Source: Luteimonas sp. JM171
GTDB taxonomy: Bacteria; Pseudomonadota; Gammaproteobacteria; Xanthomonadales; Xanthomonadaceae
DNA: 64,000 nucleotides
Direction of reading: 5' to 3'
NCBI RefSeq assembly: GCF_001717465.1
Contig: NZ_CP017074.1
Coordinates: forward strand, 2,880,873 to 2,944,872
Made by a program: the position numbers and the translations under genes. The notes under the pieces were generated by a model. It saw nothing but the letters and a program-made list of their open reading frames with translations, had not been told where the DNA came from and made no database searches. Positions 15,126 through 44,937 of this stretch are shown here, one piece after another (positions within the stretch are counted from its first letter, which is position 1; each line of letters opens with the position of its first letter).

Positions 15126-16496
15126 GTGAAAGACCTGACCACAGGACCAGTCAGTGCGCACATCCTCAAAATGTCGGGCGCCCAGCTCGTCAGTCTGCTC
15201 GCTGGGTCCATCTCTTCGCTCGTCAATATTTACTGGATCGGGATGCTCGGCACAACGGCGCAAGCCGCGGCAACACTGGCCGCAATACCGGCAATGCTGG
15301 TTATGGCGCTTCTTCCGATCATAACCGTAGGCGCAGCGATATTGATGTCTCACGCGGTGGGCGCCAAGGACCAACGGCGCGCCAACATAATATTCAACGA
15401 AGCGCTGGGCGTCACCTCGGCGATAGTCTGCGTAATGGCCGCCGTGGCGTGGGTCAACCGCGAGGCAATCGGAGTGGTGCTCGCGTCACACGATGAAACC
15501 GCGGCTCTGATCGCCGAGTACTACACGTGGTTTTTCCCCTCCATGGTTGCGCAAGTCCCGGTGTTGATAATTGCAGGAGCGCAGGCCGCAATCGGCAACA
15601 TCAGAGTTTCCACGATAGCCCAGACCGGTGCCATGGGCCTGAACGTACTCTTGAACCCTATCCTGATGTTTGGATGGGTGGGCTTGCCAGCCTTCGGCAT
15701 CAGCGGTTCCGGCATGGCGTCTCTAATCGCTTACACTCTGCCACTTCTCGGACTAATAATTTACTCATGCCACAGAGGTTCCTATCTATCTCTCATGCCC
15801 CAGATGTGGATCGCGAGACCGAATGAGTTATGGAGTGGCCTGAAACTTGGGTTACCCGTCGGCCTGGAGGGTGCCGTCTTCGCAATCTATATGTTTTTCA
15901 TAGCCGTGTTGATACGCCCGTTCGGACCGATTGAAGTGGCAGCATTCGGAGTGGGACAACGCGTCTTGCAAGCGGGCCTGTTACCACTGCTAGCGCTGAG
16001 TAGCGCTACGGCCATCATAGTTGGACAAAACTATGGCGCGGGAGCTAGCGATCGAATCCGCGAGTCCCTGAAGTCGAGCGCCGCGCTGGCGCTTCTCATA
16101 GCACCTACGCTGCTCGCGGTGTTCCAGCTCTTCCCGCACTGGATCCTTCAGCGCTTTTCAGAGGATGCGGGGACCATAGAATCGGGAGTACTTCTTCTTC
16201 GTATCGACTCATTTAGCCTGATCCCCGTGGGCCTGGCCTACATCATCTTCTCCGTCCTTTCAGGAATGGGAAACACGAAACCCGGACTTTACTGCTCCGC
16301 AGCCTACTGCCTTTCGATCATAGCGACATCGTGGTGCCTTTCCTTCCTTAATGGATTCTCCCCTGTCTGGATATGGAAGGTGATGGTGGTCGCAGCTCTA
16401 TTTCAGGCGCTCGTAGCGGCCCTTTTTCTCAGGTACGACTTCAACCGACGAGGATATATCCAACCGTCTTTTCTAGCTGCAGGTGCCAAAGGATAA
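15126..16496 (+). CDS. MATE-family efflux transporter (probable peptide exporter of the P450 cluster)
   Basis: 456 residues from a GTG start with GGGGAG upstream. About twelve hydrophobic segments in two six-helix halves are visible (for example LVSLLAGSISSLVNIYWIGMLG, MLVMALLPIITVGAAILMSHAVGA, TAIIVGQNYGAG), which is the DinF/NorM-type MATE pattern. MATE proteins expel organic compounds using Na+ or H+ gradients. It is the first gene of a three-gene + strand operon with two M16-family proteins and faces two P450 genes and a small peptide gene. Export of the finished product or self-protection is the likely role; this is inferred from context. GC is clearly lower than in the flanks. Confidence 0.92.
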   Translation: MKDLTTGPVSAHILKMSGAQLVSLLAGSISSLVNIYWIGMLGTTAQAAATLAAIPAMLVMALLPIITVGAAILMSHAVGAKDQRRANIIFNEALGVTSAIVCVMAAVAWVNREAIGVVLASHDETAALIAEYYTWFFPSMVAQVPVLIIAGAQAAIGNIRVSTIAQTGAMGLNVLLNPILMFGWVGLPAFGISGSGMASLIAYTLPLLGLIIYSCHRGSYLSLMPQMWIARPNELWSGLKLGLPVGLEGAVFAIYMFFIAVLIRPFGPIEVAAFGVGQRVLQAGLLPLLALSSATAIIVGQNYGAGASDRIRESLKSSAALALLIAPTLLAVFQLFPHWILQRFSEDAGTIESGVLLLRIDSFSLIPVGLAYIIFSVLSGMGNTKPGLYCSAAYCLSIIATSWCLSFLNGFSPVWIWKVMVVAALFQALVAALFLRYDFNRRGYIQPSFLAAGAKG

Positions 16497-16502
16497 AGTC
16501 CA

Positions 16503-17798
16503 GTGACCTCCCTGACCTTCACCGGAGAGCGCGGCGAGCTTGAGGAGTATCGAGTACTCCAGAACGGGCTCACCGTGTTACTAGCACCCACGGCACCAGC
16601 TGCCGCCGTTCTGGTAATGGTGACGTATCACGCCGGCTCAGGTGACGAAGGTGCTGATGCAGAAGGGTGCAGCCACATGTTGGAGCACATGATGTTCAAA
16701 GGATCCGCCCGTTACAACAGATCACTCGGTACTTCCATTCATGATAAGATCGGTGCGGTAGGAGGCAGCACAAACGCCACTACGTGGCGTGACTACACCA
16801 ACTACTGGTGTTTTGTTCCCTCCAGGCACCTAGAGCTTGCTATCGATATAGAAGCGGACCGAATGCAAGCTCCCCTACTCGCCCGAAGCGACCTAGATGT
16901 TGAACGGAAGGTGGTTCTTAACGAGCAGGACATTCGTGCTTCATCTCCTATGGAATTCATCAGCGACGTAGTATGGCGCACCATGTATCCAAACCATGCA
17001 TACGGTCGTCCCGTCATTGGATCTCGCAGCGCAATATCGAATCTGTCGCGAGACCAGCTGCTGCATCACCATAAGAGCTTCTACCAAACAAATAACGCGA
17101 CCATCACCGTCGCCGGCCATTTCGATCGCGAAGAGGCAAAGGACCAGATTGGCCTCCTCTTTGGGGGAATTCCGCCGGCAGATCCTGCCTCCAGGTCGGC
17201 AGCGACTCCAATCGCAAGCATCCGAGCCCACGAAACAACTGTTTATCAGCAGGGCGCACCGGAATGCTTGGCAGTGGTGTTCCCCTCCCCCCCCGGCCTA
17301 CACCGCGATAGCGACGCACTGGCGATCTTGGCGCTCATTCTCGCGAGCGGAAACGCTTCCCGCCTTAACCGGGCACTGGTGGCTACTGGGCGCGCAACCC
17401 ACGTTTGGGCCATGACATCCAGGCTCCGACTCAACGGTCTATTTGAAATTCACGTTGTGCTTGCTAGGCAAGATGACTGCGCCGGAGTATCCCGACACAT
17501 CCAGGAAGCGATACTGGATATTCAAGGCCATGGTGTAAGCAGCGAAGAACTTGAGACGGCGAAAGCCAATGCTCGCGGCCAGCTTATTACCTCAAGGGAC
17601 GGCCCGCTAGCGGTAGCCATGCAGATAAATAACGCAATCGCGATGGGGAACTGGCATTACTATTGCGACGCCGTTGAGCGAATCGAAGCCGTATCCAATG
17701 ATGATATTCGGCGCGCCGCCGAGACTTGGCTTGTTGATCGACACCACCAAAAAGTCCGACTGACGGGACTAAAGGAAGGCTCCGGTGTCGCTAGCTAG
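16503..17798 (+). CDS. M16-family zinc peptidase, catalytic subunit
   Basis: 431 residues from a GTG start six bases after the MATE stop. It has the inverted zinc motif HMLEH in GCSHMLEHMMFKGS (about residue 58) with the distal Glu in VERKVVLNEQDI, so it should be catalytically competent. SRDQLLHHHKSFYQTNNATITVAGHFD and DRHHQKVR are typical M16 features. Bacterial M16 pairs often work as heterodimers and several process RiPP leaders (for example PqqF/PqqG and AlbE/AlbF). It overlaps the next M16 gene by 14 bases. Its likely job is removing the leader of the 33-residue peptide encoded at 20355-20456; that link is an inference. Confidence 0.93.
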   Translation: MTSLTFTGERGELEEYRVLQNGLTVLLAPTAPAAAVLVMVTYHAGSGDEGADAEGCSHMLEHMMFKGSARYNRSLGTSIHDKIGAVGGSTNATTWRDYTNYWCFVPSRHLELAIDIEADRMQAPLLARSDLDVERKVVLNEQDIRASSPMEFISDVVWRTMYPNHAYGRPVIGSRSAISNLSRDQLLHHHKSFYQTNNATITVAGHFDREEAKDQIGLLFGGIPPADPASRSAATPIASIRAHETTVYQQGAPECLAVVFPSPPGLHRDSDALAILALILASGNASRLNRALVATGRATHVWAMTSRLRLNGLFEIHVVLARQDDCAGVSRHIQEAILDIQGHGVSSEELETAKANARGQLITSRDGPLAVAMQINNAIAMGNWHYYCDAVERIEAVSNDDIRRAAETWLVDRHHQKVRLTGLKEGSGVAS

Positions 17799-19080
17799 TA
17801 TAACCAAGCATAGGGCCGTCACAGCCGACGCAAAGATGCCGCTCCCATCCGGCAGTCAGTTTGAGGTACCTAATGGAATTCTTCACGGATTCCACATACC
17901 TAACTCTTCTCTCTTCGCGCTAAACATATCGAACGCTCAACCAATCAACCACGATGAGGCACTTCGCCAGGAGATCGTGGTTGCATGCCTTGTGAATGGA
18001 GAGGTGAGCAAAGAAAAGATATTTCTCTCGCGCGAGCTAGAGAGTCGCGGCGCATCATTCTCTCTCGAATGTCAGGCCGGGCGAGCAGAGCTGCGCGTTA
18101 TCGGTCCGGCGGAGCACTCTACGGAGATTCTAAAACTACTCTTCAAATGTTTCGCCGACCCACGCGCCCCAGGGCAAACGCTGTCATTAGCGAAACGCAA
18201 AATTGCCGCGGAGCTGCGTTATCGCTCTACATCTTCGCGCGCTATGGCTGAAGATGCGATTCGCCGTTTACTTTACTGCGACGCCGACCCGCGTCATGTC
18301 GAGGATACGGAAGCGAGAATTCGCGCGATCGAAATGGTAGACCGCACTGACATTCAGAACTTCCCGCTGTTCAACGAGGCCCATCTCGTTATCGCCGGAA
18401 ATATCGATCCGACGGTTGCGGCTGACATATTGTCTGAGGCCCTTCCGCCCTCTGCACCCCGATCGGATAGGCCAATTCCTACTTGGCCCTACCCAACAAC
18501 CTGCCCCGGATCTACCCGCATCGAAGTCCCCGGAGCGCAACACACCGTCGCACTCGGTCGCCCAGTGCGACTGAACTCTGCTCACCCGGATTACTTGACT
18601 GCCTGCCTGATGAACAATGTACTGGGTGGCGCGTTCAACTCATGGCTCGTGGAAGCCACGAGAGAAGAGCACGGCCTTAATTATAGCATTCAATCCGAAC
18701 TGCACTGCAGAGACCCGAAACACACGGGGCACTGGCTCGTACACTTTTCCCCCAACGCTGGGGACTTGGAGAGGGCAACATCTATCGTGAGATCGGTAAT
18801 CTCACGGTTCTCGGATTCTAAGATTTCAGAAGCCGATCTGGACCTCCAGAAGAATGCGTACGTGGGCAGATTTTTGGTAAGTCTCTCGTCACTCTCTGGG
18901 CTCTGCGCACTGGCGCTCAGTGAGGCTGAGCGGGGCAGCGGCCCCGATTACATGCTAAGCCTGCCTGACAGAATTCGGGCAATCACCATGGAAGATGTCG
19001 AACGCGTCCGCTCGGAGCACTTCCAGGATAGAGACTTCTTCACCGCGGTAGCCGGACCCAATCCTAAACCGGTACGATAG
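17785..19080 (+). CDS. M16-family protein lacking the zinc motif (partner subunit)
   Basis: 431 residues from a GTG start inside the end of the previous gene (AAGGAAGG ribosome site). The fold pattern is M16: an N-terminal domain with VVACLVNGEVSKEKIFLSRELESRGASFSLECQAGRAEL and a C-terminal domain with NVLGGAFNSWLVEATREEHGLNYSIQSEL, which contains the R/Y substrate-binding pair. There is no HxxEH, so it is the non-catalytic half of a heterodimer, as PqqG is to PqqF. Its 3' end overlaps the 3' end of the convergent P450 gene by 17 bases. Confidence 0.88.
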   Translation: MSLASITKHRAVTADAKMPLPSGSQFEVPNGILHGFHIPNSSLFALNISNAQPINHDEALRQEIVVACLVNGEVSKEKIFLSRELESRGASFSLECQAGRAELRVIGPAEHSTEILKLLFKCFADPRAPGQTLSLAKRKIAAELRYRSTSSRAMAEDAIRRLLYCDADPRHVEDTEARIRAIEMVDRTDIQNFPLFNEAHLVIAGNIDPTVAADILSEALPPSAPRSDRPIPTWPYPTTCPGSTRIEVPGAQHTVALGRPVRLNSAHPDYLTACLMNNVLGGAFNSWLVEATREEHGLNYSIQSELHCRDPKHTGHWLVHFSPNAGDLERATSIVRSVISRFSDSKISEADLDLQKNAYVGRFLVSLSSLSGLCALALSEAERGSGPDYMLSLPDRIRAITMEDVERVRSEHFQDRDFFTAVAGPNPKPVR

Positions 19081-20296
19081 ATCCGAAGAAGCCAGTTGGC
19101 CTGACCACCGACGCAATCATCATCGCACCGGGGCTGTCGCGATCGACACTAATCCGGAACTTTGTACATAGGAGATGCGAAAGAAGTATTAACTGCGCAA
19201 GGCCCAAACTTGCGCCTACGCACGACTTGGGTGCCCAACCGAAGGGCATATAAGGTTCGTGCGCACAGTTCGCCGGCCGGGATTTTTCGCTAACCCAGCG
19301 GTCGGGATCAAATTGATCAGGATTCCTCCAGCGCTCAGGATCGTTATGGACGATATAAGGACTCATAACATATCTATGTCCAGGCTTTAGGCGAATCTCA
19401 CCCTCCGCGATTGGCACACGGACGTTCCTTACTAGGACCGACGGCGAGCTCCAGATTCTTAGCGTCTCTTTTACAAAGCGCGTAGTTTCTGGCGCGGATT
19501 GGACAGGTGAGCCATAAAGCTTCTCTGCGGAGATCGATCCGAGCTCAACTTGCAGGCGAGCGTACCACTCAGGCCGCCGGGTCAACTCATAGAGAAGGCA
19601 TGCCGCTACCGCACCCGGAGAACCCGTAATTGCGGTCAAGAGCGCCGTGACGGCATCAACCGCTCGCCCAATCCCAAGGCTTGGGATCATATCAACAACA
19701 GGGTCGGCCAAATCCTTTTGACGCCTCCTGCTACCATTGACCCTACCCGAAAGTTCACGCCTGACCTCAATCCCCGCCAAGACCTGCCTCAGGCTCATGA
19801 TCAGCGCCTGCCAGCGGGGGCTCCGGGGGGGATCGACGTCTGAAAACACGAACGAAATTTTACTTTTGATTTCCCGGACGATTCGATTATTGGCTTTATT
19901 GGGAAGCCCGGCGATAATCGACGGAACCAATGCTCCGGTGATGACATTCTCCACGAGCCACACAAGATCTTGACGAGCGGCTCCTTTTTCCCTCAGCGAG
20001 ACCTCCATTCTTTCGGTAAGCAGTTGGAGATGTTCCGCATTGGTCAGGGTTCGCATTTGCCTCCCCCATGCGGAGCGAAGCTGTCTCCAGTCCACAGCCT
20101 CACTGGAACGACCTAGAAGTGTATCGGTAAAGCTATCCAACATAGTTAGATCGGCGAAGTTAGCTGCGTCCACACGTTGCGCAACAGACGCATCGAATAC
20201 AGCGAGGATATCTTCTGCGAGCCAGAAGATTGGCCCCTCCTCCTTCCGGCGGCGCAATATGTCCTCCATAGACGGAGTTGCCGAGAATTTCGCCAC
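19064..20296 (-). CDS. Cytochrome P450 (first of two, downstream of the peptide gene)
   Basis: 410 residues if translation begins at the GTG at 20296 (GGAG upstream); a longer frame reaches 20419 but would run through the peptide gene's terminator. Visible P450 elements: I-helix region ITGSPGAVAACLLYELTRRP, K-helix ExxR in KETLRIWSS, ERWRNPDQFDPDRW, and heme loop PFGWAPKSCVGASL with the proximal Cys. The usual Gly four residues before Cys is Pro (and the normal F-x-x-G position holds Ala), a departure from the F-x-x-G-x-x-x-C-x-G consensus. The I-helix lacks the usual acid-alcohol pair. Probable role: oxidative cross-linking of the adjacent peptide, inferred. Confidence 0.9.
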   Translation of the reverse strand: MAKFSATPSMEDILRRRKEEGPIFWLAEDILAVFDASVAQRVDAANFADLTMLDSFTDTLLGRSSEAVDWRQLRSAWGRQMRTLTNAEHLQLLTERMEVSLREKGAARQDLVWLVENVITGALVPSIIAGLPNKANNRIVREIKSKISFVFSDVDPPRSPRWQALIMSLRQVLAGIEVRRELSGRVNGSRRRQKDLADPVVDMIPSLGIGRAVDAVTALLTAITGSPGAVAACLLYELTRRPEWYARLQVELGSISAEKLYGSPVQSAPETTRFVKETLRIWSSPSVLVRNVRVPIAEGEIRLKPGHRYVMSPYIVHNDPERWRNPDQFDPDRWVSEKSRPANCAHEPYMPFGWAPKSCVGASLGLAQLILLSHLLCTKFRISVDRDSPGAMMIASVVRPTGFFGSIVPV

Positions 20297-20317
20297 TGTG
20301 CGGTGTGCTCCGAGCTG

Positions 20318-20346
20318 AAAAGGGGGGCAACGAATGTTGCCCCCCC
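20318..20346 (-). terminator. Terminator/attenuator between peptide gene and P450
   Basis: On the minus strand a perfect 10-bp stem (GGGGGGCAAC-ATTC-GTTGCCCCCC) is followed by TTTTC, ten bases after the peptide stop and before the GTG of the downstream P450. Partial readthrough would yield much peptide and little enzyme, the usual RiPP ratio. Confidence 0.85.
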
Positions 20347-20354
20347 TCGAACCG

Positions 20355-20456
20355 TCAGATGTTGTGATACATAACCCAATGCCAGCCAAGGCCGCCCCGA
20401 CACATCCCGCCACGAACACCCATGGCTGCCTTCATTGCGATCATTACCCTTTTCAT
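20355..20456 (-). CDS. Putative RiPP precursor peptide, 33 residues
   Basis: This small gene begins with ATG at 20456 after AAGGAG at six bases spacing, the best ribosome site in the cassette, and ends with TGA at 20355. The peptide starts MKRVMIAMKAAMGVRGGM, a short Met/basic leader-like part with Gly-Gly, and ends CRGGLGWHWVMYHNI. The C-terminal W-H-W-V-M-Y-H pattern concentrates the residues that P450 enzymes cross-link in known peptides (Trp, Tyr, His). It lies between two P450 genes on the same strand, has its own terminator, and faces M16 peptidases and a MATE exporter. Calling it a precursor is inference from these facts; alternative starts are M5 and M8. Confidence 0.75.
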   Translation of the reverse strand: MKRVMIAMKAAMGVRGGMCRGGLGWHWVMYHNI

Positions 20457-20534
20457 AGCTCTCTCCTTAACGAAGTTATACTACGACATACCAAGGCACA
20501 TGGGGCAGACGAAGCTCCATATACCTAGGTTCGG

Positions 20535-20575
20535 TTTCAGCCCAACCCGGCGGCAACAATAGGGTTGAACTGAAA
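20535..20575. other. Hairpin upstream of the peptide gene
   Basis: TTTCAG and CAACCC on the left pair with GGGTTG and CTGAAA on the right, with a 2x2 internal loop and a 13-base loop. It lies between the second P450's stop and the peptide gene. No T-run follows on either strand, so it does not look like a terminator; it may be a leader structure or operator. Confidence 0.4.
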
Positions 20576-20583
20576 AAATTTGT

Positions 20584-21723
20584 TCACGGCCTTGACCGCA
20601 ACTCAAGAGTAAACGGAGGAGGAGCCATCGCAGCCGCCACCGTAGGCTCGCAGCTCGCCGCCTGCACGTGCAATGTGAACCTTTCATCGAGAATTTTCAG
20701 CATGCTGCTGACCAAATCCGATACGAGGTCCGCCGCTACGCAACGATGACGTCCATGGCCGAATGGAATGAAAGCCGGGTTACTCCACTCGGATTCATCG
20801 GCCCAACGCTCGGGTCTGAATTCTGAAGGGCTGCTCCAATAGTGTGGATTGCGCTGCACACTATAGGGGCACACCACCACGTCCTCATGACGCTCTACAG
20901 AGACACCTGCCACGGTATGAGGCTCGGCAGGCTTTCGACTGAGCAGCCAAGCCACAGGCCAGAGACGCAGGGATTCCCGGACAACCCAATCCGCGGGAAC
21001 ATTCCGCGGTGAATTAGTGCCTCTTAAGTAAATTGACCAAGCCAAGAGGAACCCAACTGAGCCTGCAGACGCGAACAGAAATGAGAGGAATATTTCTGAG
21101 AGTTCATCCACCCCATGATCGAGATTCGACGCGTTAGCGATCACGTCTAACACGTCAACTGGCGGGCTTTGGGGCGTCCGCCTTCTATCTTCAAATGCCT
21201 CCGAAAGCAACAGCGTTGTCCGGAATTGAAGCAACATGCGACGCCAGAGCCTTTGCTTGCGCTTCGCATTTGCTAGAACGGCACGCTCAACAATCTCGTC
21301 CATCAGCAGGTAAAGGCCGGCTGGGGTCTCGGTAGCGGCCAAAAATGGCTTTAAGTAGCTATAGGCTAGACGATTGCCCTCATCTGGCCAGAAACTCATC
21401 TTCGGCAGGTGTGTAGCTATATGATCTGCAAGATCACTCTCGCCGCGCGAGTGCAGGTATTCTCGCAATAACCTGCGGGCGTCGCGGCGAATAGTGAACT
21501 GTGCCTCGCGCGGTCGAAACAGGCCATGGCGGGTGTGAAAGAAGTCCGAGTGATCCTCGTACCACCCTTCTTTGTTCTGAAGTACGCCGCGCGCCACCAC
21601 CGGATCCGCGAGGATATATCGTCGCTTCCCAACCGGTGACACAACGCGCTCTTTGGCGAGTTGCTCGTCCAAGAACCCGATCGGATCACGGGTAAATTGT
21701 CTCGATATCCGCCTTCCATGCAC
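20584..21723 (-). CDS. Cytochrome P450 (second of two, upstream of the peptide gene)
   Basis: 379 residues from a GTG start with GGGGA upstream; short for a P450. It has ExxR in VRESLRLWPVAWLLSRKP, PHYWSSPSEFRPERWADE, and the heme loop IPFGHGRHRCVAADL with the conserved Gly and proximal Cys. The I-helix region reads LFASAGSVGFLLAWSIY, without the usual acid-Thr pair, as in P450s that do unusual chemistry. It shares little sequence with the first P450 beyond these motifs, so the two probably act at different bonds or steps. The N-terminus has no membrane anchor, so the enzyme is soluble. Confidence 0.9.
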   Translation of the reverse strand: MHGRRISRQFTRDPIGFLDEQLAKERVVSPVGKRRYILADPVVARGVLQNKEGWYEDHSDFFHTRHGLFRPREAQFTIRRDARRLLREYLHSRGESDLADHIATHLPKMSFWPDEGNRLAYSYLKPFLAATETPAGLYLLMDEIVERAVLANAKRKQRLWRRMLLQFRTTLLLSEAFEDRRRTPQSPPVDVLDVIANASNLDHGVDELSEIFLSFLFASAGSVGFLLAWSIYLRGTNSPRNVPADWVVRESLRLWPVAWLLSRKPAEPHTVAGVSVERHEDVVVCPYSVQRNPHYWSSPSEFRPERWADESEWSNPAFIPFGHGRHRCVAADLVSDLVSSMLKILDERFTLHVQAASCEPTVAAAMAPPPFTLELRSRP

Positions 21724-21923
21724 GTTGCTATCCCCGTCCTGATGGCGACTCCCCTACTAGCAGCAGCCCCGAGATATTGATTCACTACACATGTATTCCT
21801 GCAAGATGTCAACTCCCCACTTGTGCCAGTAGCGTGACCCCCGTCCCAATTGCCCTCTGTGCCGGAAACCTCCGGGTAATCGCGTGTTTCGCCGCGAGGA
21901 CTTCGACGCGGAGGTCTGACCTT

Positions 21924-22515
21924 GGAGGGTCCGAGCTGCGGCGCGTCAAGGAGCTGGAAGGCGAGAGTAGCCGGCTCAAGCGGATATACGCCGAGTTGGC
22001 ACTGAATGCGGCCACGATGAAGGATCTGACGCTAAGAAAACTGTAGGGCCGGTGCGCGAGCGCGAGGCGGGATGGTACCAAGTCGAGGTGCACGCGCGGC
22101 CGGTGCATCGGTCCTGCGCATGGATAGGCGTTGTCCGGAGCGGCCTGACATCGCCCGCCGCTGGATTGGACAGCGATTGAGAGAGAGACCATCGCTGCCC
22201 TGTCGCAGCCGGTGCAGCAGCGCCCTAGCCGCGGCTTCTGGATTGCCGCGCGTTCCTCCGCCGCACGGACGCCAGCCTCCCAGCCGCGAGTGGGCCAAGG
22301 CCAACGCCATGACCATCCGATACATTCAGCCCAACAAGTCCGAACCAGAACGCCTACATCAAGCGCTTCAACCGGACCTTCCGGGAGGAGGCCCTGGACA
22401 GTCTGTTCGCCCGCCTAGACGATATACGCGAAGCGGCGCACTGGTGGATGCTCAAGGACAACGAAGTGCGCCCTATGAATCACTGGGCAACCTGACGCCG
22501 AGAGAATATCGTGAC
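21924..22515 (+). mobile_element. Degraded IS3-family insertion sequence
   Basis: Transposase pieces lie in several frames. At 21924-22046, ELRRVKELEGESSRLKRIYAELAL ... DLTLRKL is the C-terminal end of an IS3-type OrfA (leucine-zipper region). Around 22205-22260, RPSRGFWI is the OrfB N-terminal signature. Around 22345-22500, NAYIKRFNRTFREEALDSLF and HWWMLKDNEVRPMNHW, then SLGNLTPREYRDQ in another frame, are the OrfB C-terminal end with the catalytic Glu. Frameshifts, deletions and lost ends make it inactive. It sits between the P450 cluster and the lasso cluster. Confidence 0.8.
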
Positions 22516-23786: not shown

Positions 23787-23838
23787 GATTAACAGATTTT
23801 TAGTTAATCAAGCAACTGCAATTAAAAAATCAATTGAT
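23787..23838. promoter_or_regulatory. AT-rich control region with two inverted repeats before the lasso operon
   Basis: GATTAAC-N9-GTTAATC (23787-23809) and ATCAATTGAT (23829-23838) lie in a very AT-rich stretch between the GntR gene and the first lasso precursor. Either could be a GntR operator; the first could also act as a hairpin at the GntR gene's end. A promoter is expected here, but no strong -35/-10 pair is clear. Confidence 0.5.
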
Positions 23839-23906
23839 AATTAAAACCTGCAGCGCCTAGCCTGTTGGCGTCATGGATTTTCATGACGCTGAAAAAGGAG
23901 GCGAAA

Positions 23907-24041
23907 GTGAACGTTCCCAATGATCCGGTCGTCCCCGATGCAGGGACAGTGCTCGGTGTCGCCAGCACCGACACGAAAGGCAGCGCCCTGATTGGCGAGG
24001 ACGTGGGTGGTCGGTACACACCCGGAATTTCTGAAGACTGA
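23907..24041 (+). CDS. Lasso peptide precursor 1
   Basis: 44 residues from a GTG start with AAGGAGG five bases upstream. A 24-residue leader ending ASTDTK, with the conserved Thr at the penultimate position, is followed by a 20-residue core GSALIGEDVGGRYTPGISED. Gly1 and Glu7 (or Asp8) give the macrolactam ring. The core aligns with xanthomonins (G-x-x-L-x-G-E-E-x-G-G-...-P-G-I-S-E), which have a seven-residue ring closed at Glu7, so Glu7 is the likely acceptor. The tail plug would be Arg12/Tyr13. An in-frame ATG at 23883 exists but would place the ribosome site inside the gene. Confidence 0.9.
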   Translation: MNVPNDPVVPDAGTVLGVASTDTKGSALIGEDVGGRYTPGISED

Positions 24042-24074
24042 GCGCGGCTTCGCGCCCGAAGGAGGGTTAAAGCG

Positions 24075-24221
24075 ATGGAGAAATCCAGTAGCGAAATTCC
24101 ACTTTCCACTGATGTACCTCAACCCGTTGTATTGGCCATCGCCAGCGTCGACACCAAGGGAACCAACAAGATTGGTGAAGACATGGGTGGCTTCTGGGCT
24201 GGAGGAATATCTCAGGAGTAA
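24075..24221 (+). CDS. Lasso peptide precursor 2
   Basis: 48 residues from an ATG with GAAGGAGGG upstream. The 28-residue leader ends AIASVDTK (Thr at -2), and the core is GTNKIGEDMGGFWAGGISQE. Ring residues Gly1 to Glu7 and the following Asp8 and Gly10-Gly11 match precursor 1, but the plug region differs (Phe12-Trp13 instead of Arg-Tyr). The two leaders share only the last few residues (AS-x-DTK). A small GCGCG/CGCGC hairpin lies between the two genes at 24043-24056. Confidence 0.9.
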   Translation: MEKSSSEIPLSTDVPQPVVLAIASVDTKGTNKIGEDMGGFWAGGISQE

Positions 24222-24231
24222 GGCGAAAAAG

Positions 24232-24253
24232 GGGGCGCACCACGGTGCGCCCC
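24232..24253 (+). promoter_or_regulatory. Hairpin between precursor genes and processing genes
   Basis: GGGGCGCAC-CACG-GTGCGCCCC, a perfect 9-bp stem, lies between the second precursor and the B gene. It is followed by TCCCTGTTT rather than a clean U-run. Such intergenic hairpins in lasso operons lower expression of the enzymes relative to the precursor. Confidence 0.7.
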
Positions 24254-24274
24254 TCCCTGTTTGGAGGAACTGCC

Positions 24275-24934
24275 ATGGGTCGCTACGTTCTTCGAGAAGA
24301 CCTTTCGTTCTGTCATGTGGGTGGGTGCTTGGTATTTTTCGACATAGGAAGCGACCAATATCTGCGCCTGCCATCGACGCTGGGAGCTGCGCTGGTCAAA
24401 TATCTTTCTTCGGAATCTCCATCCCACATCAATGTGGACGAGCTCGTCGCGCGAAACATCCTTGTCGAACAAGGCGACTCTGCTCCTGCGAGTAGACCCA
24501 CTGCAATTCCTCCGACACGCAGCTCCATGGAAGAAGCGCACCCACTACCACGGGTGAGTTTTTTACAGGCGCTTGAAGCGCTTGCGCTGGTGGTTCATAC
24601 GCAGATGACGCTCAAGCTACGCCCGTTCAAGCATGTGCTGAGGATCGCAGGCGCCCCTGCCCAAACCTTCGAAGCGCCACCGCTTGAACAGCAGGTCATT
24701 AAAGAAGCGGCTGCTTTCCGCCGCTCCCGCCTTTACATCCCTGTCGAAATGCGCTGCTTGGTGGATTCCATAGCCTTGGCGAGGTTCCTCCGTCGCCGGA
24801 AGCGCAACGTGCATGTGGTGTTCGGCGTCGCCGTTGATCCGTTCTCGGCTCATTGCTGGGTACAGGCGGGCGATCTCGTACTGAACGACACTCTGGGCAA
24901 CGTCACATCCCACACGCCGATCAGGGTCGCTTGA
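24275..24934 (+). CDS. Lasso peptide maturation protein B (fused RRE and leader peptidase)
   Basis: 219 residues from the ATG at 24275 (GGAGGAA upstream). The N-terminal ~75 residues are the PqqD-like recognition element (YVLREDLSFCHVGGCLVFFDIGSDQYLRLP), which binds the leader. The C-terminal part is the transglutaminase-like cysteine protease: Cys in MRCLVDSIALARFL, His in FSAHCWVQAGDLVLND with the Asp nearby. It removes the leader before ring closure. Its stop overlaps the C gene's start (TGATG), so the two are translationally coupled. Confidence 0.95.
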   Translation: MGRYVLREDLSFCHVGGCLVFFDIGSDQYLRLPSTLGAALVKYLSSESPSHINVDELVARNILVEQGDSAPASRPTAIPPTRSSMEEAHPLPRVSFLQALEALALVVHTQMTLKLRPFKHVLRIAGAPAQTFEAPPLEQQVIKEAAAFRRSRLYIPVEMRCLVDSIALARFLRRRKRNVHVVFGVAVDPFSAHCWVQAGDLVLNDTLGNVTSHTPIRVA

Positions 24935-26655
24935 TGTACCGGTACGCCGCCCTGCTCTACGACGAAGACGGAAGAAACCGCAATCCGTCAATCCACGGAG
25001 CGCTCGTTGAAGCAGGGCTGACCCGCGTAACGGAGCAAGAAGAATTTGGCCTGTACGCTTCTCCCGACACTCCGGTTCTCCACCTCTCTTCCGGGGCTTC
25101 CGTCGTCGGCCACATCTTCCAACGCATCAACAATCGTCCAATAGAAGAACCTGGCCTGCTCCGGCAAGTCCCTGCGGATGCCCTCGCCGCTCACATGATC
25201 CGTGAATGCTGGGGTGAGTACGTGCTTTTTCAACCCGGGAACGGAAGTTCTCTCATGGTGATGCGCGATCCGTCTGGAGGCGCCGACTGCGTATATTCAT
25301 CCGAGAGAGGGTTTGTGGTCTCGGACATCTCGCTTGCGACAGATGCGGGTCTTTATACCAAGCAAATCGACTGGGACTTCATCCGCAACACTCTGGCCTA
25401 TCCGCACCTCAAGACCGGTCACACTGGCCTCGCCGGGATCCATGAGTTGCTACCGGGCCAGGCGCTTCAACTGTCACTTGGAAGCAGCATGACCCGTGAC
25501 GTCTGGACGCCATGGGACTTCGTATCAGCGAGCAAGAGGTACAACGATCGTCGGGACGCGCTGCGAGCAGTACGCGAAGCGGTGAGATCCACCGTAAGAG
25601 CGTGGGCCGACACAGATGGCTCGATTCTGCTGGAATTGTCGGGCGGCTTGGATTCCTCAATCGTTGCGGCCGCTCTGATGGGCTCGCGCGCCGACATTAC
25701 CTGCTGCAACTTGGTCACACCGGTACCCGGCGCCGATGAGCGTCTGTACGCAGAACAGATGGCAGCGTCGCTCAAATCCGAGCTCCATGTCCAGGAACTG
25801 AGCATCGACGGAGCAGAGTTCAGCTTTGAGCCGCCGCCACATGCGGTGACCCCAAGCACCTGGCTGCTCCAGCACGCATCCAATGAGGCCAAGGAGTGGA
25901 TCGGCCAGCAGGTGGGCGCGCGCAGCTACTACTCTGGAGGCGGGGGTGACACTGTCTTCTGTTTCACAAAATCCGCGGCTCCGGTAGTAGACGCTTTCAA
26001 TAGCCGGAGCTTCGTGTGCGCCTTGAGGACGATCCGGAACCTGGCGGAACTGCATCAATGCACGGTCTGGAAGGTTACCCGTTTAGCAGCGAGAAAGTTG
26101 CTCGGTCCGGCCAAGCCACCGAGGACGCCTGACCATGCATTCCTGTCGTTCAAATCCGACCTTGAGATCGCAGCGCTGCATCCATGGTTCTCGGCACCGC
26201 CCGCCGCTTTGCCGGGAGACATGGAGCGCATCTTCGATCTCGCCGGCAACCAGGTTTTCAGAGATGGTATTGGACGTAGCAGCCACCGGGCCTTTCGCAT
26301 GCCGCTGCTGTCTCAACCGGTCATGGAAACCTGTCTTAAGGTTCCGAGTTGGATGTGGTTTGCCAATGGTCGCGACCGCTCCATCGCCCGGGAGGCGTTT
26401 GCGGATCGGCTCCCCGCAGACATCTTCCACCGACGCAGCAAAGGCACCTTCATGAACTACACGGGCGCTGTCTATCGGCGGAACATGCATCGAATGAGGG
26501 ATTACCTCGTGAATGGCCGGCTCGCAAAGCACGGCCTCCTCGACACCGACTCCCTGCGGAAGTTCCTGGGCAGCAACCCGGACACGCACGGTGATTCGTT
26601 CATGCGAATCTTTGATCTGTGCGAGGTGGAAAACTGGATTCGATACCAAGCGTGA
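24934..26655 (+). CDS. Lasso peptide macrolactam synthetase C
   Basis: 573 residues, an asparagine synthetase B homologue. The N-terminal glutaminase-like domain lacks the catalytic Cys2 (starts MYRYAALL), as in lasso cyclases. The ATP-binding domain carries the PP-loop LELSGGLDSSIVAAAL (about residue 240) and the downstream YYSGGGGDTVFCF and RRSKGTFMNY motifs. It adenylates the Glu side chain and joins it to Gly1 of the threaded core. It follows the B gene with overlap and ends 13 bases from the convergent isopeptidase gene. Confidence 0.95.
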   Translation: MYRYAALLYDEDGRNRNPSIHGALVEAGLTRVTEQEEFGLYASPDTPVLHLSSGASVVGHIFQRINNRPIEEPGLLRQVPADALAAHMIRECWGEYVLFQPGNGSSLMVMRDPSGGADCVYSSERGFVVSDISLATDAGLYTKQIDWDFIRNTLAYPHLKTGHTGLAGIHELLPGQALQLSLGSSMTRDVWTPWDFVSASKRYNDRRDALRAVREAVRSTVRAWADTDGSILLELSGGLDSSIVAAALMGSRADITCCNLVTPVPGADERLYAEQMAASLKSELHVQELSIDGAEFSFEPPPHAVTPSTWLLQHASNEAKEWIGQQVGARSYYSGGGGDTVFCFTKSAAPVVDAFNSRSFVCALRTIRNLAELHQCTVWKVTRLAARKLLGPAKPPRTPDHAFLSFKSDLEIAALHPWFSAPPAALPGDMERIFDLAGNQVFRDGIGRSSHRAFRMPLLSQPVMETCLKVPSWMWFANGRDRSIAREAFADRLPADIFHRRSKGTFMNYTGAVYRRNMHRMRDYLVNGRLAKHGLLDTDSLRKFLGSNPDTHGDSFMRIFDLCEVENWIRYQA

Positions 26656-26668
26656 CTTCTTCCCGCAG

Positions 26669-28744
26669 TCAAGGTTCGGCGGTGTCCATGTTCTCCTTCA
26701 TCTCCCGCCATATCGCGTATTGTTCCTGTTTCGATGGCGCCGGATCCTCGTAATCCTGGAGCCAGAATCGAAACCAGTCCAGGTTCCTCTCATACACCGC
26801 AAGCTTGTGACGCGGCTGGAACTTCTGGTGCGGCTCGTGGGGGAACACATACAGATCGGCGCGATGGCTGCGAAGCAGCGGAATCAGGTAATCCAGCGCG
26901 TACAGGTACTCCTGTTCGGAGTGCTGGAACAGCACCGGCGCCTGCACGTTGTCCAGCTTGAATGCCGGTGAGAGCACGCGCCAGCGAGCCGGCGTCTCAT
27001 CTGGAGCGGCCAAGCCCCACAAATCCTTAAGGCCGCGTGAGAAAAGGTCACCCCGCAGGCTCCCGAACAGATGGTAGAGGGGTGAAACAACGGGGTTCGC
27101 CACGGAAGCGGCAGCCAGCACATCGGACTCGGTGAGCGTCCAAAGGGTCACTGCCCCGCCGTAGCTCAACCCGCCCATGCCCACGCGTTCGCGATCCACT
27201 TCACCAGCAGCAGAAAGCAGGTCGACCACGCTCTCCACTGCCGCCGTGCCCTCGGCATGCCGCGCTACTGCGTCCATGGTGTATCCCGGCAAGTGGTTGA
27301 TGCACAGCGCGGCGATACCAGCGGCCGCCAGGGAAGCCAGCGGCCACTCGTCCCCTACCCCACCCCGCACAAAGCCCGGGCAACTGTAATAGGTGACAAA
27401 AAGCGGCACCGGCCCATCGCCCCCGCCTTTTGCGGGATACATCTGGCCGGTGAAGCGCCTCCCCTGCCCGTCGGTCCATTGCAACAGGCGGGCCGGGCCG
27501 ACGCGGGCCACTGCCTCGGTCAATGCCGCGTTGGGATCGAACAATACGCGACGCTCACCGGTCTCCAGGTCAATCCGCTCCAGCCGCGGCGGGCCATCGG
27601 CTTCCGCTGCCACACACACCAAGGCCTCCGCAGCCACACCGCAGGGTGAAGATGCATCGCGCCCGCCGCTGATCAGGCCTCGCGAGCGCAACACCCTGTG
27701 GACCTCGCCGGTGCCCACGTTCCAGCGGTACTTCGATTGGGCCAGACCTGCATCATGATCGGTAACCGTGAACAGCACCTCGTCATGTCCGGGGCGCCAC
27801 TGAATCACATTGATCGCCCTGCCGGTGCACAACTCCGAAGTACAGTGAACCGGACGCCGGCCGTTCCTGGAGCGCACGACCGACATCAACACGTCGGGGC
27901 GGTCCATTGCGCCGGCGCGATCACCGACCCGGGTCAGCAAGGCGACCCTGTCGCCCACTGGTTCGGGCTCCGACTTCCAGAGGTCCCCCTCGATGCCCCG
28001 GAGTACCGGAGTGTCCGGCGACCGGCCGATGTACTCCGATTTCATCTCGCGCCTGACGCCGGTTTCCAGATCCAGCTCATACCACCGGTCCGGCACGTGG
28101 CCCAGAAGTGGCCTCCGGGCGAACCAGATGTCGGTGAAGCGCTGGGTGGCCAGGCGCCCGTCAACATATCCCGACCGAAACAGGCTCTGCCCGACGGGCA
28201 CATCGGCATCAATGCGGATGCCCTGCTCATACTCGGCCTCTTCGGCCATCAGCACCGTCTCACGTGTCGGGCCAACGCTATAGCGGAGCATTCGCCCGTC
28301 GTCGGACAACGAAAAATCGCGTATGTCGGCAGCATCGCGTGTCACTGGCCCCGCGTGGGATCCGTCAGCGGCCGCGCGCCACACGTCGATCCTGCCCTCC
28401 ACGAAGGCCCGGTAGTAGATCCAGCGGCTGTCTGCAGACCAGACAGCCACCGCAGGCAACGGCAGACCTGCCGAGTCCCGCAGCGGAACGCCGCCATCCG
28501 CAACGCGCCGGGGGTGAGCCGCGTCCAGGCCCTGCACGTACCACACCGAGTCCCACGCATTGCGCTCGATCGAAGCCTGCTCCACCCGGAACGCCACCCT
28601 CTTTCCATCGGGAGACACCACCGGCCGGCCGATGTCCGCCACCTCCACCAGCTGACGTGGAGACACGGCAGCAGCCGGCGCAACGCAGGCACAAGCCCCC
28701 ACAAAGGCGCCTGCCAGCAGGCGCCACCATGATTGCCTCAACAT
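26669..28744 (-). CDS. Lasso peptide isopeptidase (S9 prolyl-oligopeptidase type)
   Basis: 691 residues with a Sec signal (LLAGAFVGACACVAPAAA). A beta-propeller (about 30-400) precedes an alpha/beta hydrolase domain with nucleophile Ser in GMGGLSYGGAVTLW, acid Asp/Glu in LFQHSEQEYLYALDYL, and His in YVFPHEPHQKFQP. Isopeptidases of this type (AtxE2, SpI-IsoP) cut the macrolactam of the cognate lasso peptide and are encoded beside the biosynthetic genes in proteobacteria. It is read from the TonB receptor's operon. GGAGG lies five bases before the ATG. Confidence 0.92.
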   Translation of the reverse strand: MLRQSWWRLLAGAFVGACACVAPAAAVSPRQLVEVADIGRPVVSPDGKRVAFRVEQASIERNAWDSVWYVQGLDAAHPRRVADGGVPLRDSAGLPLPAVAVWSADSRWIYYRAFVEGRIDVWRAAADGSHAGPVTRDAADIRDFSLSDDGRMLRYSVGPTRETVLMAEEAEYEQGIRIDADVPVGQSLFRSGYVDGRLATQRFTDIWFARRPLLGHVPDRWYELDLETGVRREMKSEYIGRSPDTPVLRGIEGDLWKSEPEPVGDRVALLTRVGDRAGAMDRPDVLMSVVRSRNGRRPVHCTSELCTGRAINVIQWRPGHDEVLFTVTDHDAGLAQSKYRWNVGTGEVHRVLRSRGLISGGRDASSPCGVAAEALVCVAAEADGPPRLERIDLETGERRVLFDPNAALTEAVARVGPARLLQWTDGQGRRFTGQMYPAKGGGDGPVPLFVTYYSCPGFVRGGVGDEWPLASLAAAGIAALCINHLPGYTMDAVARHAEGTAAVESVVDLLSAAGEVDRERVGMGGLSYGGAVTLWTLTESDVLAAASVANPVVSPLYHLFGSLRGDLFSRGLKDLWGLAAPDETPARWRVLSPAFKLDNVQAPVLFQHSEQEYLYALDYLIPLLRSHRADLYVFPHEPHQKFQPRHKLAVYERNLDWFRFWLQDYEDPAPSKQEQYAIWREMKENMDTAEP

Positions 28745-28785
28745 GACATCCTCCCTCGCTTACGCCCACGTACAGGCGACGCGGA

Positions 28786-31266
28786 TCACCAGCGCTTCGA
28801 CACGGAGACGCTTACAAACCGGCCAATCGGCGAGTAGTTGGTCGAGTCATATGGCGCCACGTACAGCGGCTCAGCCACCAGGTAAAACGGCGGATCGCGA
28901 TCCAGCGCATTGTCGACGGACAAGGCGAACTCCATCCCCGACCACGCATCTGCGCGGTCAGCCGTGGCGTAGCGCAGCGAAACATCGAGACTTGTGAACG
29001 ATGCCGACTTTCTGCCGTCGAGGTGATTGGTCACGCCACCGAGGTGGTTGCCGAACGCTGACGCCGAGAGCCCTCCCCTCCTCCACACTCCGCCCAGCCG
29101 CGCACTGAGGCGGGGCGGGTTGAACAGCGTGCCCGAGAGATCGTGCGGGTCCTGCGTCGGGAGGGTCTGCTGCGTGCTGTCCAGCCAGCTGACGGATCCG
29201 CGCAATGTCATCGTGCCGCCGGGCAGCTCGCCCAGGTATGAGCCGGACAGGTCCAGACCCCGGATTTCCTGTCGGGCCACGTTCGTGTACTGCTGGTAGA
29301 GGATGACCTCCACCTTCTCCGGGTCGTATGGCATGCCCGTCATGTTCTCGAAGTTCCGCGCCCGGGCGATCGCAGCCGCCTGCTCTTCGGGCGTGGGCGA
29401 GAAGTGGACGAACGGCGCGTAGATCGGGTTGCTGAGCGCCTGGGTCGGGTTGACGATGGGCTGGAGGACCCGGTTGCGGTAGTCCACATGGAACCAGGTC
29501 AGTTCCGCCTGTAATCCCTGCACCGCCTTGGGATGCCACGCCAGCGACACGGCCCACGTTTTCGCTTTCTCCGGCTCGAGGTCCGGGTTTCCGCCCCACA
29601 ATGCCAGGAGCGTAGCGTCGGGCGGGTACCCCGTCCCGCCGAAGTCGCTCGGGTGGTAGAGCCAGATATCGGCAGCGTAGTTCTGGTGGAACAGCGTTGG
29701 CGCCTTGAATGACCTGCCCCATGTTCCCTTCAGCGTGAAGTCGGCGCCCGGTGCGTAGATCAGCCCCAGCTTGGGCGTCGTCACCCCTCCAAAACTCTCG
29801 TAATCCTCACGCCGCAGAGCAGCGGTCAGCGAAAGCCGCTCAACGCCGGCGTTACCCTGCCCCGCGCCAACCAGCGGGACATCCACCTCTGCATATCCAA
29901 AGCGCACGCTCTCGGATCCGTTTGTGATGTCAGCTCCAGTGACGCGGTTGACGTGCTGGAACTCGTTGCGCCGGTATCCGGCACCGGCAGCAAGGCGCGC
30001 CTCACCCGCCGGCAACGCGAGCAGCGGCCCTTCCGCGCCCAGCTCCCAGGTGAGGCTTTCGTTGCAATAGCAGACATCACTGCCCTCCTGCCTCCCGGTG
30101 GCGATGACGGTATCCCTGCGGACCTGGTTGTGCCTGTCCCGGCCGAGCGCGCCACCCAGCACAATGGACCAATCGTTGGCCAACCAGACCTCAACGCTTG
30201 GCGAGACCAGGGTGATGGTGGTGTCCGGTGTCACCAGGCTGTGCCAGCCGTGCCAGTTGTACATATGCCGCTGGTCGCGCTCCGTGCGCAGCGCATCCAG
30301 CCTCAGCTCCACGGAATTACCAACCGACTGGTACGCGCTCAGCAGCCCGCTGCGGACGTCGCTGCCAGGATAGATCGTGGATGGATCAACCAGTTGATCG
30401 GAGTACCAGCGCTGGCTGCTGTAGAGCGGATCCATGGACGCGTCCTTGGCGGTAGCGATCAGGCCGCCACTGCGCCATGTGGTACCGGCAGTCAGCGTGT
30501 ACTCGCGGCTCGCGAGCCCGCCCTGGGTCGCCTTCCCGAAGCGCGCGCCCAACCCTACCCCGTCGTAATCGCGCTTAAGCACGACGTTGCCCACGCCGCC
30601 GACGGCATCCGACCCATAAATGGCCGAAGCCCCATCGGCCACGATCTCGATCCGCTCCACCGCCTCGACAGGAATGGCGCTGATGTCCACCGACTGGGAA
30701 AAGCCCCCATAGGCCATGCGGCGCCCGTTGAGCAGGGTGAGACTGGCATCCGGCCCCAGGCCGCGCAGGTTGAGGCCGGATCCGCCGGTGATGTTCTGGT
30801 TGGCGATCCCTGCCCCACCAAGGTTGGCGGCCGTCACGCCCGGGTTCTGCCCTCCCGAGAAGTTCTGGGGAAGACTGCGGGCCAGTTCGCCCAGATCGCT
30901 GAACCCCTCTTCGCGTATCTGGCTGGCGTCGATCGTGATGACCGGCGATGGCACGGAGCCGCCCCTGATGCGCGTTCCGGTGACTTGGACCGTTTCGAGT
31001 TGGGTGGCGGTTGCATTTGCCTCAGCGTCATCGCTCGCCGAGCCTTCCCTTTGGACAGTGCCCACAGGATGCTCAATTTGGGCGTTTGCGCCCCACAACG
31101 GGAGCAACGCCCCTACCACAGCAGCACAGATTCTGCGTGAGAGCTTCGCCCGACGTTCGGGTGTCCCCACCATCTTCGACCGAAAAGCCCGGGTGCTCTT
31201 GGAGCCGAAGTGCTCCGGCATCCCACCATTTCGTCCCGGCACATCCCCTCCCTTCCCTTTCCACAT
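28786..31266 (-). CDS. TonB-dependent outer-membrane receptor of the lasso locus
   Basis: 826 residues from the ATG at 31266, chosen for GGAGA seven bases upstream; the frame is open to 31389. A long basic N-region precedes the signal peptide (RRICAAVVGALLPLWGANAQ). A TonB-box-like ETVQVTGTRIRG is followed by the plug (SLPQNFSGGQNPGVTAANLGG, GLNLRGLGPDASLTLLNGRR, VERIEIVADGASAIYGSDAVGGVGN) and the barrel, ending in an aromatic residue (VSVSKRW). It probably takes up the lasso peptide, or an iron-laden form, before the isopeptidase opens it. Co-directional with the isopeptidase gene (41-base gap). Confidence 0.93.
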   Translation of the reverse strand: MWKGKGGDVPGRNGGMPEHFGSKSTRAFRSKMVGTPERRAKLSRRICAAVVGALLPLWGANAQIEHPVGTVQREGSASDDAEANATATQLETVQVTGTRIRGGSVPSPVITIDASQIREEGFSDLGELARSLPQNFSGGQNPGVTAANLGGAGIANQNITGGSGLNLRGLGPDASLTLLNGRRMAYGGFSQSVDISAIPVEAVERIEIVADGASAIYGSDAVGGVGNVVLKRDYDGVGLGARFGKATQGGLASREYTLTAGTTWRSGGLIATAKDASMDPLYSSQRWYSDQLVDPSTIYPGSDVRSGLLSAYQSVGNSVELRLDALRTERDQRHMYNWHGWHSLVTPDTTITLVSPSVEVWLANDWSIVLGGALGRDRHNQVRRDTVIATGRQEGSDVCYCNESLTWELGAEGPLLALPAGEARLAAGAGYRRNEFQHVNRVTGADITNGSESVRFGYAEVDVPLVGAGQGNAGVERLSLTAALRREDYESFGGVTTPKLGLIYAPGADFTLKGTWGRSFKAPTLFHQNYAADIWLYHPSDFGGTGYPPDATLLALWGGNPDLEPEKAKTWAVSLAWHPKAVQGLQAELTWFHVDYRNRVLQPIVNPTQALSNPIYAPFVHFSPTPEEQAAAIARARNFENMTGMPYDPEKVEVILYQQYTNVARQEIRGLDLSGSYLGELPGGTMTLRGSVSWLDSTQQTLPTQDPHDLSGTLFNPPRLSARLGGVWRRGGLSASAFGNHLGGVTNHLDGRKSASFTSLDVSLRYATADRADAWSGMEFALSVDNALDRDPPFYLVAEPLYVAPYDSTNYSPIGRFVSVSVSKRW

Positions 31267-31396
31267 GCTGCGTCTCCGTTTATTGATCGGTCCCTGTCCT
31301 TGCAGGCCCTTCCTAGGTGTCCCGTCCGTTCTGATCCTCGCTCCACGTCTGTCCGGGCACCGCCCCCACATACGTCTTCCGTAGTACACAAGTGGC

Positions 31397-35718: not shown

Positions 35719-35733
35719 AGGACAGAATGTCCC
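35719..35733. promoter_or_regulatory. SsoII-like methylase operator
   Basis: AGGACAGAATGTCCC contains GGACA-GAA-TGTCC, the same half-sites and three-base spacing as the 15-bp operator of the C5 methylase M.SsoII (as I recall it, AGGACAAATTGTCCT). A further GGACA half-site at 35710-35714 lets the outer bases form GGGACATT-N9-AATGTCCC. It lies 20 bases before the methylase ATG. Confidence 0.7.
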
Positions 35734-35753
35734 GGTCTTTCCCGGAGTCATCT

Positions 35754-43624: not shown

Positions 43625-43625
43625 A

Positions 43626-44900: not shown

Positions 44901-44937
44901 CCGCTCCCCCATTGCGCTTCGTGCTAATCAGCGAGAG

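Follow-up and report, generated by a model that had tools for sequence, protein, structure and literature searches.

Gene content of the locus

Within the window, a 64,000-nucleotide stretch of Luteimonas sp. JM171 DNA (NZ_CP017074.1; all positions are given in its numbering), six genes lie between 15126 and 21723. Those for a MATE-family exporter and two M16 peptidase homologues, M16a and M16b, are on the forward strand, and those for two cytochromes P450, P450A and P450B, together with a 33-codon open reading frame (ORF), are on the reverse strand. The two operons are convergent, with M16b and P450A sharing 17 bases at the 3′ ends of their ORFs. A first-pass annotation had assembled these parts into a pathway for a ribosomally synthesized and post-translationally modified peptide (RiPP); ORF analysis and Pfam searches found every one of them in place (Table 1). 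Comparison with homologous loci leads us to regard the locus as very probably a RiPP cluster that is complete in itself and belongs to a tandem-P450 family.

The small ORF encodes MKRVMIAMKAAMGVRGGMCRGGLGWHWVMYHNI, with a leader that begins MKRVMIAMKAAMGVRG and a C-terminal end WHWVMYHNI. Its ribosome site is TTAAGGAGAGAG, and the sequence ahead of the ATG, TTAAGGAGAGAGCT, bears out the strong site originally claimed. A hidden Markov model (HMM) built from the precursors of other loci, with the window excluded, scored this ORF at 41.3 bits (E 1.1e-11). The next best of 1628 stop-to-stop segments in the window scored 7.9 bits, and the best score in 20 shuffled windows, in which bases were permuted within 300-base blocks, was 13.9 bits. 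In the 2.99-Mb genome, a DNA pattern for W-x-W-x-x-Y-H that continues with two loosely fixed codons has a single match. No NCBIfam model matched the ORF at E ≤ 0.001, so such precursors are probably missed in routine annotation.

Alignment of P450A with two orthologues, together with the sequence itself, indicates that its mechanically called ORF is over-extended and that the real start is likely to be the GTG at 20296 or the ATG at 20269. A terminator-like hairpin lies between the peptide stop and this start. By a loose criterion, a hairpin downstream of the peptide was found for only 10 of 33 peptides, at 7 of the 17 loci tried, and it is therefore not a feature of the family.

Table 1. Features of the tandem-P450 locus in window numbering
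Feature	Position	Strand	Evidence
MATE-family exporter, 456 aa	15126..16496	+	Pfam MatE, 1.3e-39
M16a, predicted catalytic M16 peptidase subunit	16503..17798	+	Pfam PF00675 and PF05193; HMLEH at residues 58-62
M16b, predicted non-catalytic M16 partner	17785..19080	+	Pfam PF05193; no HxxEH; REEHGLNY from residue 293
P450A, mechanical ORF of 451 aa	19064..20419	-	Pfam p450, 1.1e-25
Terminator-like hairpin GGGGGGCAACATTCGTTGCCCCCC, then TTTT	20322..20345	-	-21.0 kcal/mol; between peptide stop and P450A start
Precursor peptide, 33 aa; predicted core end W25-H-W27-V-M-Y30-H31-N-I	20355..20456	-	ORF, ribosome site, HMM
P450B, 379 aa	20584..21723	-	Pfam p450, 1.5e-23

Co-occurrence of the peptide and the P450 pair

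P450A was sought in 101 genomes, its own included; two others held close orthologues (51% and 55% identity), and 15 more gave matches at the general P450 level only. Among 395 genomes of the family, again including its own, P450B orthologues (54–57%) were present in eight others, and all eight carried the full gene set. Of 7999 scored candidates, 334 were relatives of P450B at E ≤ 1e-10. A scan with an 18-row P450B alignment and two P450B peptide patterns gave 63 named loci, and one more (L102) came from 398 sampled genomes of the phylum. With duplicate copies of a genome removed, 68 loci with a P450B relative were compared. P450A was detected beside P450B with HMMs from three Xanthomonadaceae cassettes. 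Precursors were sought, blind to P450A, in a six-frame search within 2.5 kb of P450B for ORFs of 24–55 residues with an aromatic C-terminus; the pattern demanded W, F, Y or H at −7 and Y or N at −4.

P450A adjoined P450B in 51 of the 68 loci. The precursor search returned 68 peptides, 61 of them distinct, from 51 loci, and these were the same 51; the remaining 17 had neither P450A nor precursor. The small ORF is thus kept at the P450 pair in every homologous locus with both enzymes (51/51) and at none without P450A (0/17), a pattern that supports the original RiPP reading. Pair and peptide occur together in Pseudomonadota, Actinomycetota, Myxococcota and Acidobacteriota. The genetic arrangement of a RiPP cluster, a short gene-encoded precursor whose leader and core are conserved and which lies beside modifying enzymes, is present at 51 of the 68 loci.

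All 61 distinct peptides have W at −7 and Y at −4; the alternatives that the search pattern permitted at these positions never occurred. H(−3) is present in 54, I(−1) in 52, and W or Y at −9 in 52, giving a family-wide ending W-x-x-Y-(H)-x-(I). The W-x-W-x2-Y-H ending proposed in the first-pass annotation is accordingly conserved far beyond the genus in the form W-x-x-Y, and its exact W-x-W form is that of the Xanthomonadales. Leaders are short and basic, and 59 of the 61 share an A/S-hydrophobic-x-[IVL]-[R/Y] stretch. Examples are MKKVICAMRAAFGVRGASGCGITMWRWVAYHNI (Lysobacter type), MRALYLKAKSVLNIRGQYEYFWYLYHHI (Streptomyces), MAKIFRSVMAALSIRRKDPLYRWYLYHHI (Myxococcus) and MKKIKSAFLRAIGLRQKKAAGRYFWLLYHNV (Thalassomonas). 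The 10 Xanthomonadales genomes have 22 precursors in all, one to four per cluster, and four also occur in a Pseudoalteromonas cluster; at one locus (L034) the cores run WRWVAYHNI, WRWVHYHNI, WRWLTYHNI and WRWVQYHNI. Over pairs of precursors of the same length, the ratio of non-synonymous to synonymous differences (pN/pS) was 0.40 for the Xanthomonadales (46 pairs), 0.56 for 28-residue Streptomyces-type peptides (90 pairs) and 0.49 for 29-residue actinobacterial-type peptides (54 pairs). Purifying selection therefore acts on the precursors, but it is not strong.

The enzymes and a proposed route

P450A and P450B share 29% identity over 128 residues and are distinct, as first described. With the partial locus L047 excluded, the ExxR motif and the heme cysteine are present in 50 of 50 P450A and 50 of 50 P450B sequences. 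With the register set by eye, the alcohol position of the I-helix is Gly in all 50 P450A and Gly or Ala in all 50 P450B sequences, and the acid position is Pro in all 50 P450A and V, I or T in at least 46 of the 50 P450B sequences. In cross-linking P450s, absence of this acid/alcohol pair is viewed as favouring oxidative coupling over oxygen insertion, and its apparent loss here would fit coupling rather than insertion. An AlphaFold2 model of P450B has the P450 fold (mean predicted local distance difference test score, pLDDT, 87.1), and the profile match of P450B to PDB 9ULW has an E value of 1.1e-111. The P450A and P450B distance matrices are correlated (r = 0.96 over 50 loci; none of 1000 permutations as high), which demonstrates joint inheritance of the two enzymes, not joint action.

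In a midpoint-rooted P450B tree of 65 of the 68 rows, the ten Xanthomonadales proteins form one clade (100/100) that includes the window; the remaining members of the pair clade fall into gammaproteobacterial, myxobacterial/acidobacterial (88/93) and actinobacterial groups. A Nonomuraea/Streptosporangium lineage with a single P450 lies outside the pair clade. In all 11 of these loci (L083–L092 and L094) a small ORF, MRKL(L/M)RRVTGRR(I/V)NRQAW(F/Y/H/R)IW, follows shortly after the P450 (one starts VRKL), and at L086 a methyltransferase gene comes next. These loci appear to represent a sister, one-P450 type of RiPP. Since the peptides beside this sister lineage end in W-x-x-W, P450B is probably the maker of the W-x-x-Y link; the comparison suggests that the P450B lineage forms a W-x-x-[W/Y] bond and that the Y-H-x-I ending is associated with P450A. 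Beside more distant P450B-like enzymes of Amycolatopsis and Actinocatenispora (L097, L099 and L100), a small ORF near the P450 start ends in WRMYYEIY, WVIYYEIY or WQIYYVVY; the same search found none near the P450B-like enzymes of L096 and L098.

An R/Y pair marks the non-catalytic subunit of heterodimeric M16 peptidases. HxxEH is present in M16a of all ten Xanthomonadales genomes with the cassette and in no M16b. The R/Y pair was recovered in nine of ten M16b proteins by regular expression, and alignment shows that the tenth (L057) retains R...Y as RERQALTY. M16a also has Glu141, in VVLNEQ, about where a third metal-binding residue would be expected. The best PDB matches are 3AMJ_C, ‘zinc peptidase active subunit’, for M16a (6.1e-34) and 3AMJ_B, ‘zinc peptidase inactive subunit’, for M16b (2.3e-17); 3AMJ thus pairs an active HxxEH subunit (chain C) with an inactive partner (chain B), and M16a/M16b is predicted to be a catalytic/non-catalytic heterodimer of the same kind.

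MATE, M16a and M16b accompany the P450 pair in 10 of 10 cassette-bearing Xanthomonadales genomes (Luteimonas aquatica, Lysobacter spp., Dokdonella fugitiva, further relatives and the window). In the nine other than the window the order, read from stop codons since some ORF starts are over-extended, is P450B-peptide(s)-P450A-MATE-M16a-M16b on a single strand. At the other 41 of the 51 pair loci neither M16 nor MATE was found at E < 1e-2 within the locus DNA searched, which for L045, L047 and L102 is less than 5 kb and for several others ends early on one side. Ten genes neighbouring nine other loci, eight of them pair loci and the ninth L086, come from unrelated families, and in Pseudoalteromonas L063 an ABC transporter gene directly follows P450B. 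The first-pass annotation would have counted M16 and P450 genes occurring apart elsewhere against its reading, and this is partly the case. We conclude that the core unit is the peptide with its P450 pair and that the protease and exporter are an addition of the Xanthomonadales lineage.

The following route would account for these parts. The ribosome would make the 33-residue precursor, as conservation of the ORF implies. The P450 pair would recognize the basic leader (K/R..A.+.A-hydrophobic-G-[IV]-R), and W27 (−7) and Y30 (−4) would be coupled oxidatively, a link that we hold to be quite probable. P450B would form this W-x-x-Y link and P450A would then close either a fused ring or a second one, by way of W25 (−9), H31 or, as in a benzofuranoindoline, the Trp–Tyr pair itself; as to which P450 does which, the balance is about even. 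Because of their catalytic anatomy and their constant co-occurrence in the Xanthomonadales, the M16a/M16b heterodimer would, with good probability, remove the leader, and the MATE protein would then likely export the product. The product is most likely a secreted specialized metabolite, for which antagonism or signalling would be conceivable roles.

Several points weigh against this interpretation. The evidence is comparison of sequences, from which the cross-links are inferred. That W(−7) and Y(−4) never vary is partly conditional, because the search pattern required W/F/Y/H and Y/N there, and a correlation of distances is expected for any co-inherited genes. The 63 named loci are a non-random, uneven sample because the scan used two P450B peptide patterns, and the unit is rare, in 9 of 395 genomes of the family with its own included. 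Other peptidases and exporters may serve in the 41 pair loci where M16 and MATE were not found. Finally, L074 has a P450B inside the pair clade with neither P450A nor precursor nearby, which shows that the unit can be broken; this Actinophytocola oryzae P450B (L074:9983-11089) is probably a case of natural loss of P450A and precursor.

The cassette had been described as low in G+C content (GC), and at 54–57% it does lie below the 64–71% of ten 1-kb steps to its left (5–15 kb). The low-GC stretch (57–60%) runs on to 27 kb across a lasso-peptide cluster and therefore does not delimit the P450 cassette. This cluster (23800–31389) adjoins the cassette and has two precursor-like ORFs, ...DTKGSALIGEDVGGRYTPGISED and ...DTKGTNKIGEDMGGFWAGGISQE, which we take to resemble xanthomonins; the latter matches the NCBIfam benenodin model only below cut-off. 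It also encodes a B protein (NF033537), an asparagine-synthase-type cyclase, an Atxe2-family isopeptidase (NF033523, 650.6 bits) and a TonB-dependent receptor. Beside P450B, at ~21880–22500, fragments resemble an IS3-family transposase by eye (NQNAYIKRFNRTFREEALDSLFARLDDIREAAHWWMLKDNEVRPMNHWAT); two stretches there had no Pfam match, the frame of NQNAYIKRFNRTFREEALDSLFARLDDIREAAHWWMLKDNEVRPMNHWAT not being among those searched. Elsewhere in the window are a VgrG-like type VI secretion spike protein with DUF2345 (4614–7349) and an EcoRII-type restriction–modification island with C5 DNA methylase, Vsr and EcoRII-C endonuclease (35727–38796). A Pfam search gave no match for the ORFs at 38829–40739, 42542–43705 and 43626–44912, and GC is low at 42–45 kb.

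Comparison with known P450-modified peptides

The small ORF might instead be a regulatory or leaderless peptide, with the P450s acting on some other substrate. It is short, escaped the NCBIfam models, and P450s can act on many small molecules; nevertheless, we judge this very improbable, since precursor conservation peaks at the C-terminal aromatic residues, the ORF tracks P450A, and tandem duplication with core variation, as at L034, is typical of RiPP substrates. Cittilins have a core of the Y-x-Y-x-Y type, which none of the 61 distinct precursors has. Nor is any of the 61 a biarylitide-type precursor of six residues or fewer, the search having covered 24–55 residues and the window ORF having 33. 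The partial text seen of four papers that name other P450-RiPP types (PMC12352619, PMC12299652, PMC11002830 and PMC12951456), where core sequences are mostly absent, describes no type as W-x-x-Y-H-x-I. Were the locus an atropopeptide (tryptorubin-type) or bitryptide cluster equipped with an accessory P450, as lau is, this would explain the W-x-x-W/Y spacing of the cores and the AW.IW endings beside the single-P450 sisters of P450B. Atropopeptides have a KSLK leader motif and mostly xWxxWx cores, and their two-P450 lau cluster is unusual, being, two exceptions apart, the only characterized one with an additional modifying P450, according to the part of PMC11450843 available to us. Among our 61 precursors, KSLK or the variants listed there occurs in none and a C-terminal xWxxWx core in none, and the pair loci have both P450s with a precursor every time, where in atropopeptides the extra P450 is exceptional (lau; PMC11450843, as far as seen). 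We therefore consider this origin improbable.

The tandem-P450 family of which the locus is very probably a member appears to have a published representative. A benzofuranoindoline can arise from one Trp and one Tyr, and W(−7) and Y(−4), the sole invariant core residues here, would match that pair. The title of the report on hyalucidin A (Yin et al., Angew. Chem. 2026, e22698; doi 10.1002/anie.202522698), as cited in PMC13417212, names a benzofuranoindoline motif and tandem P450 catalysis. The compound’s name points to Streptomyces hyaluromycini, and its pathway is probably the Streptomyces branch of the family. The genome of that species gave 11 matches in the P450B search, one near-full-length (E 9.1e-120) and ten weaker and partial. 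Its locus L076 holds P450B, P450A and one 28-residue precursor, MRALYLKTKSVLNVRRSYGQFWYLYHHI, ending FWYLYHHI. We lean, by a small degree, towards the view that the window represents the xanthomonad branch of hyalucidin A’s family, with the same Trp–Tyr motif and differing only in core residues, protease and exporter. Against this, the link to hyalucidin A comes from a title and a name rather than from comparison of precursor or P450 sequences, our literature search turned up no mention of hyaluromycini among the papers that it listed, and the cores differ (WRWVxYHNI as against FWYLYHHI), so that the second P450 might act otherwise. Of what would define a hyalucidin-type RiPP, the window has two P450 genes and a precursor with Trp and Tyr; joint action of the enzymes on that precursor is a prediction, as is the cross-link chemistry of the xanthomonad product.

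PDB 9ULW, whose molecule name is ‘Cytochrome P450’, shares 99.7% identity over 370 residues with the P450B of L102, a gammaproteobacterial locus, and ~38% with that of the window; another group has therefore worked on a P450B enzyme. A relative in Streptomyces may also have been investigated before. Given this near-identity and the probable published member, the family is not a new class. ‘New’, as used in the first-pass annotation, was too strong, two-P450 RiPP clusters being already in print (lau, PMC11450843; hyalucidin A by title) and the family not being confined to one phylum. Self-contained clusters of the xanthomonad type, which have as many as four precursors, did not appear in our literature searches. 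It is possible, if less probable than kinship with hyalucidin A, that the P450 pair and its W-x-x-Y-H-x-I precursor define a distinct RiPP class over four phyla, with a self-contained xanthomonad branch whose multicyclic product, involving W25, W27, Y30 and possibly H31, would be unlike hyalucidin or atropopeptide chemistry. One xanthomonad cluster would then encode one to four precursors, two cross-linking P450s, an M16 leader peptidase and a MATE exporter. Xanthomonad clusters offer candidates for leader peptidase and exporter beside the P450 pair, so that the route from precursor to secreted product is testable from one cluster; and the 61 distinct precursors found in nature, fixed at two residues and variable at others, constitute a substrate-scope library for P450 macrocyclases.

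Among characterized systems, biarylitides and myxarylin have P450 cross-links between Tyr, His and Trp, of the kind predicted here (PMC12951456; PMC13417212, in the parts seen), although the biarylitide precursor has five residues with aromatic residues at 3 and 5, unlike those here. Atropopeptides such as tryptorubin and laurentirubin resemble the present family in being P450-modified ribosomal peptides with W-x-x-W/Y cores, in including at least one cluster with two P450s and in occurring in Actinomycetota and Pseudomonadota (PMC11450843, as excerpted); they differ in the KSLK motif and the xWxxWx core. Hyalucidin A is a bacterial RiPP for which the title names tandem P450 catalysis and a Trp–Tyr-type motif. 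L076, the locus of its presumed producer, has the same P450 pair and precursor type as the window; it differs from the xanthomonad clusters in its single 28-residue precursor and in showing no M16 or MATE within the 21 kb searched. Heteromeric M16 leader peptidases are themselves known, in the form of PttP1/PttP2 of class III lanthipeptides (PMC10885120, seen in part); here the M16 pair lies instead inside a P450-RiPP cluster.

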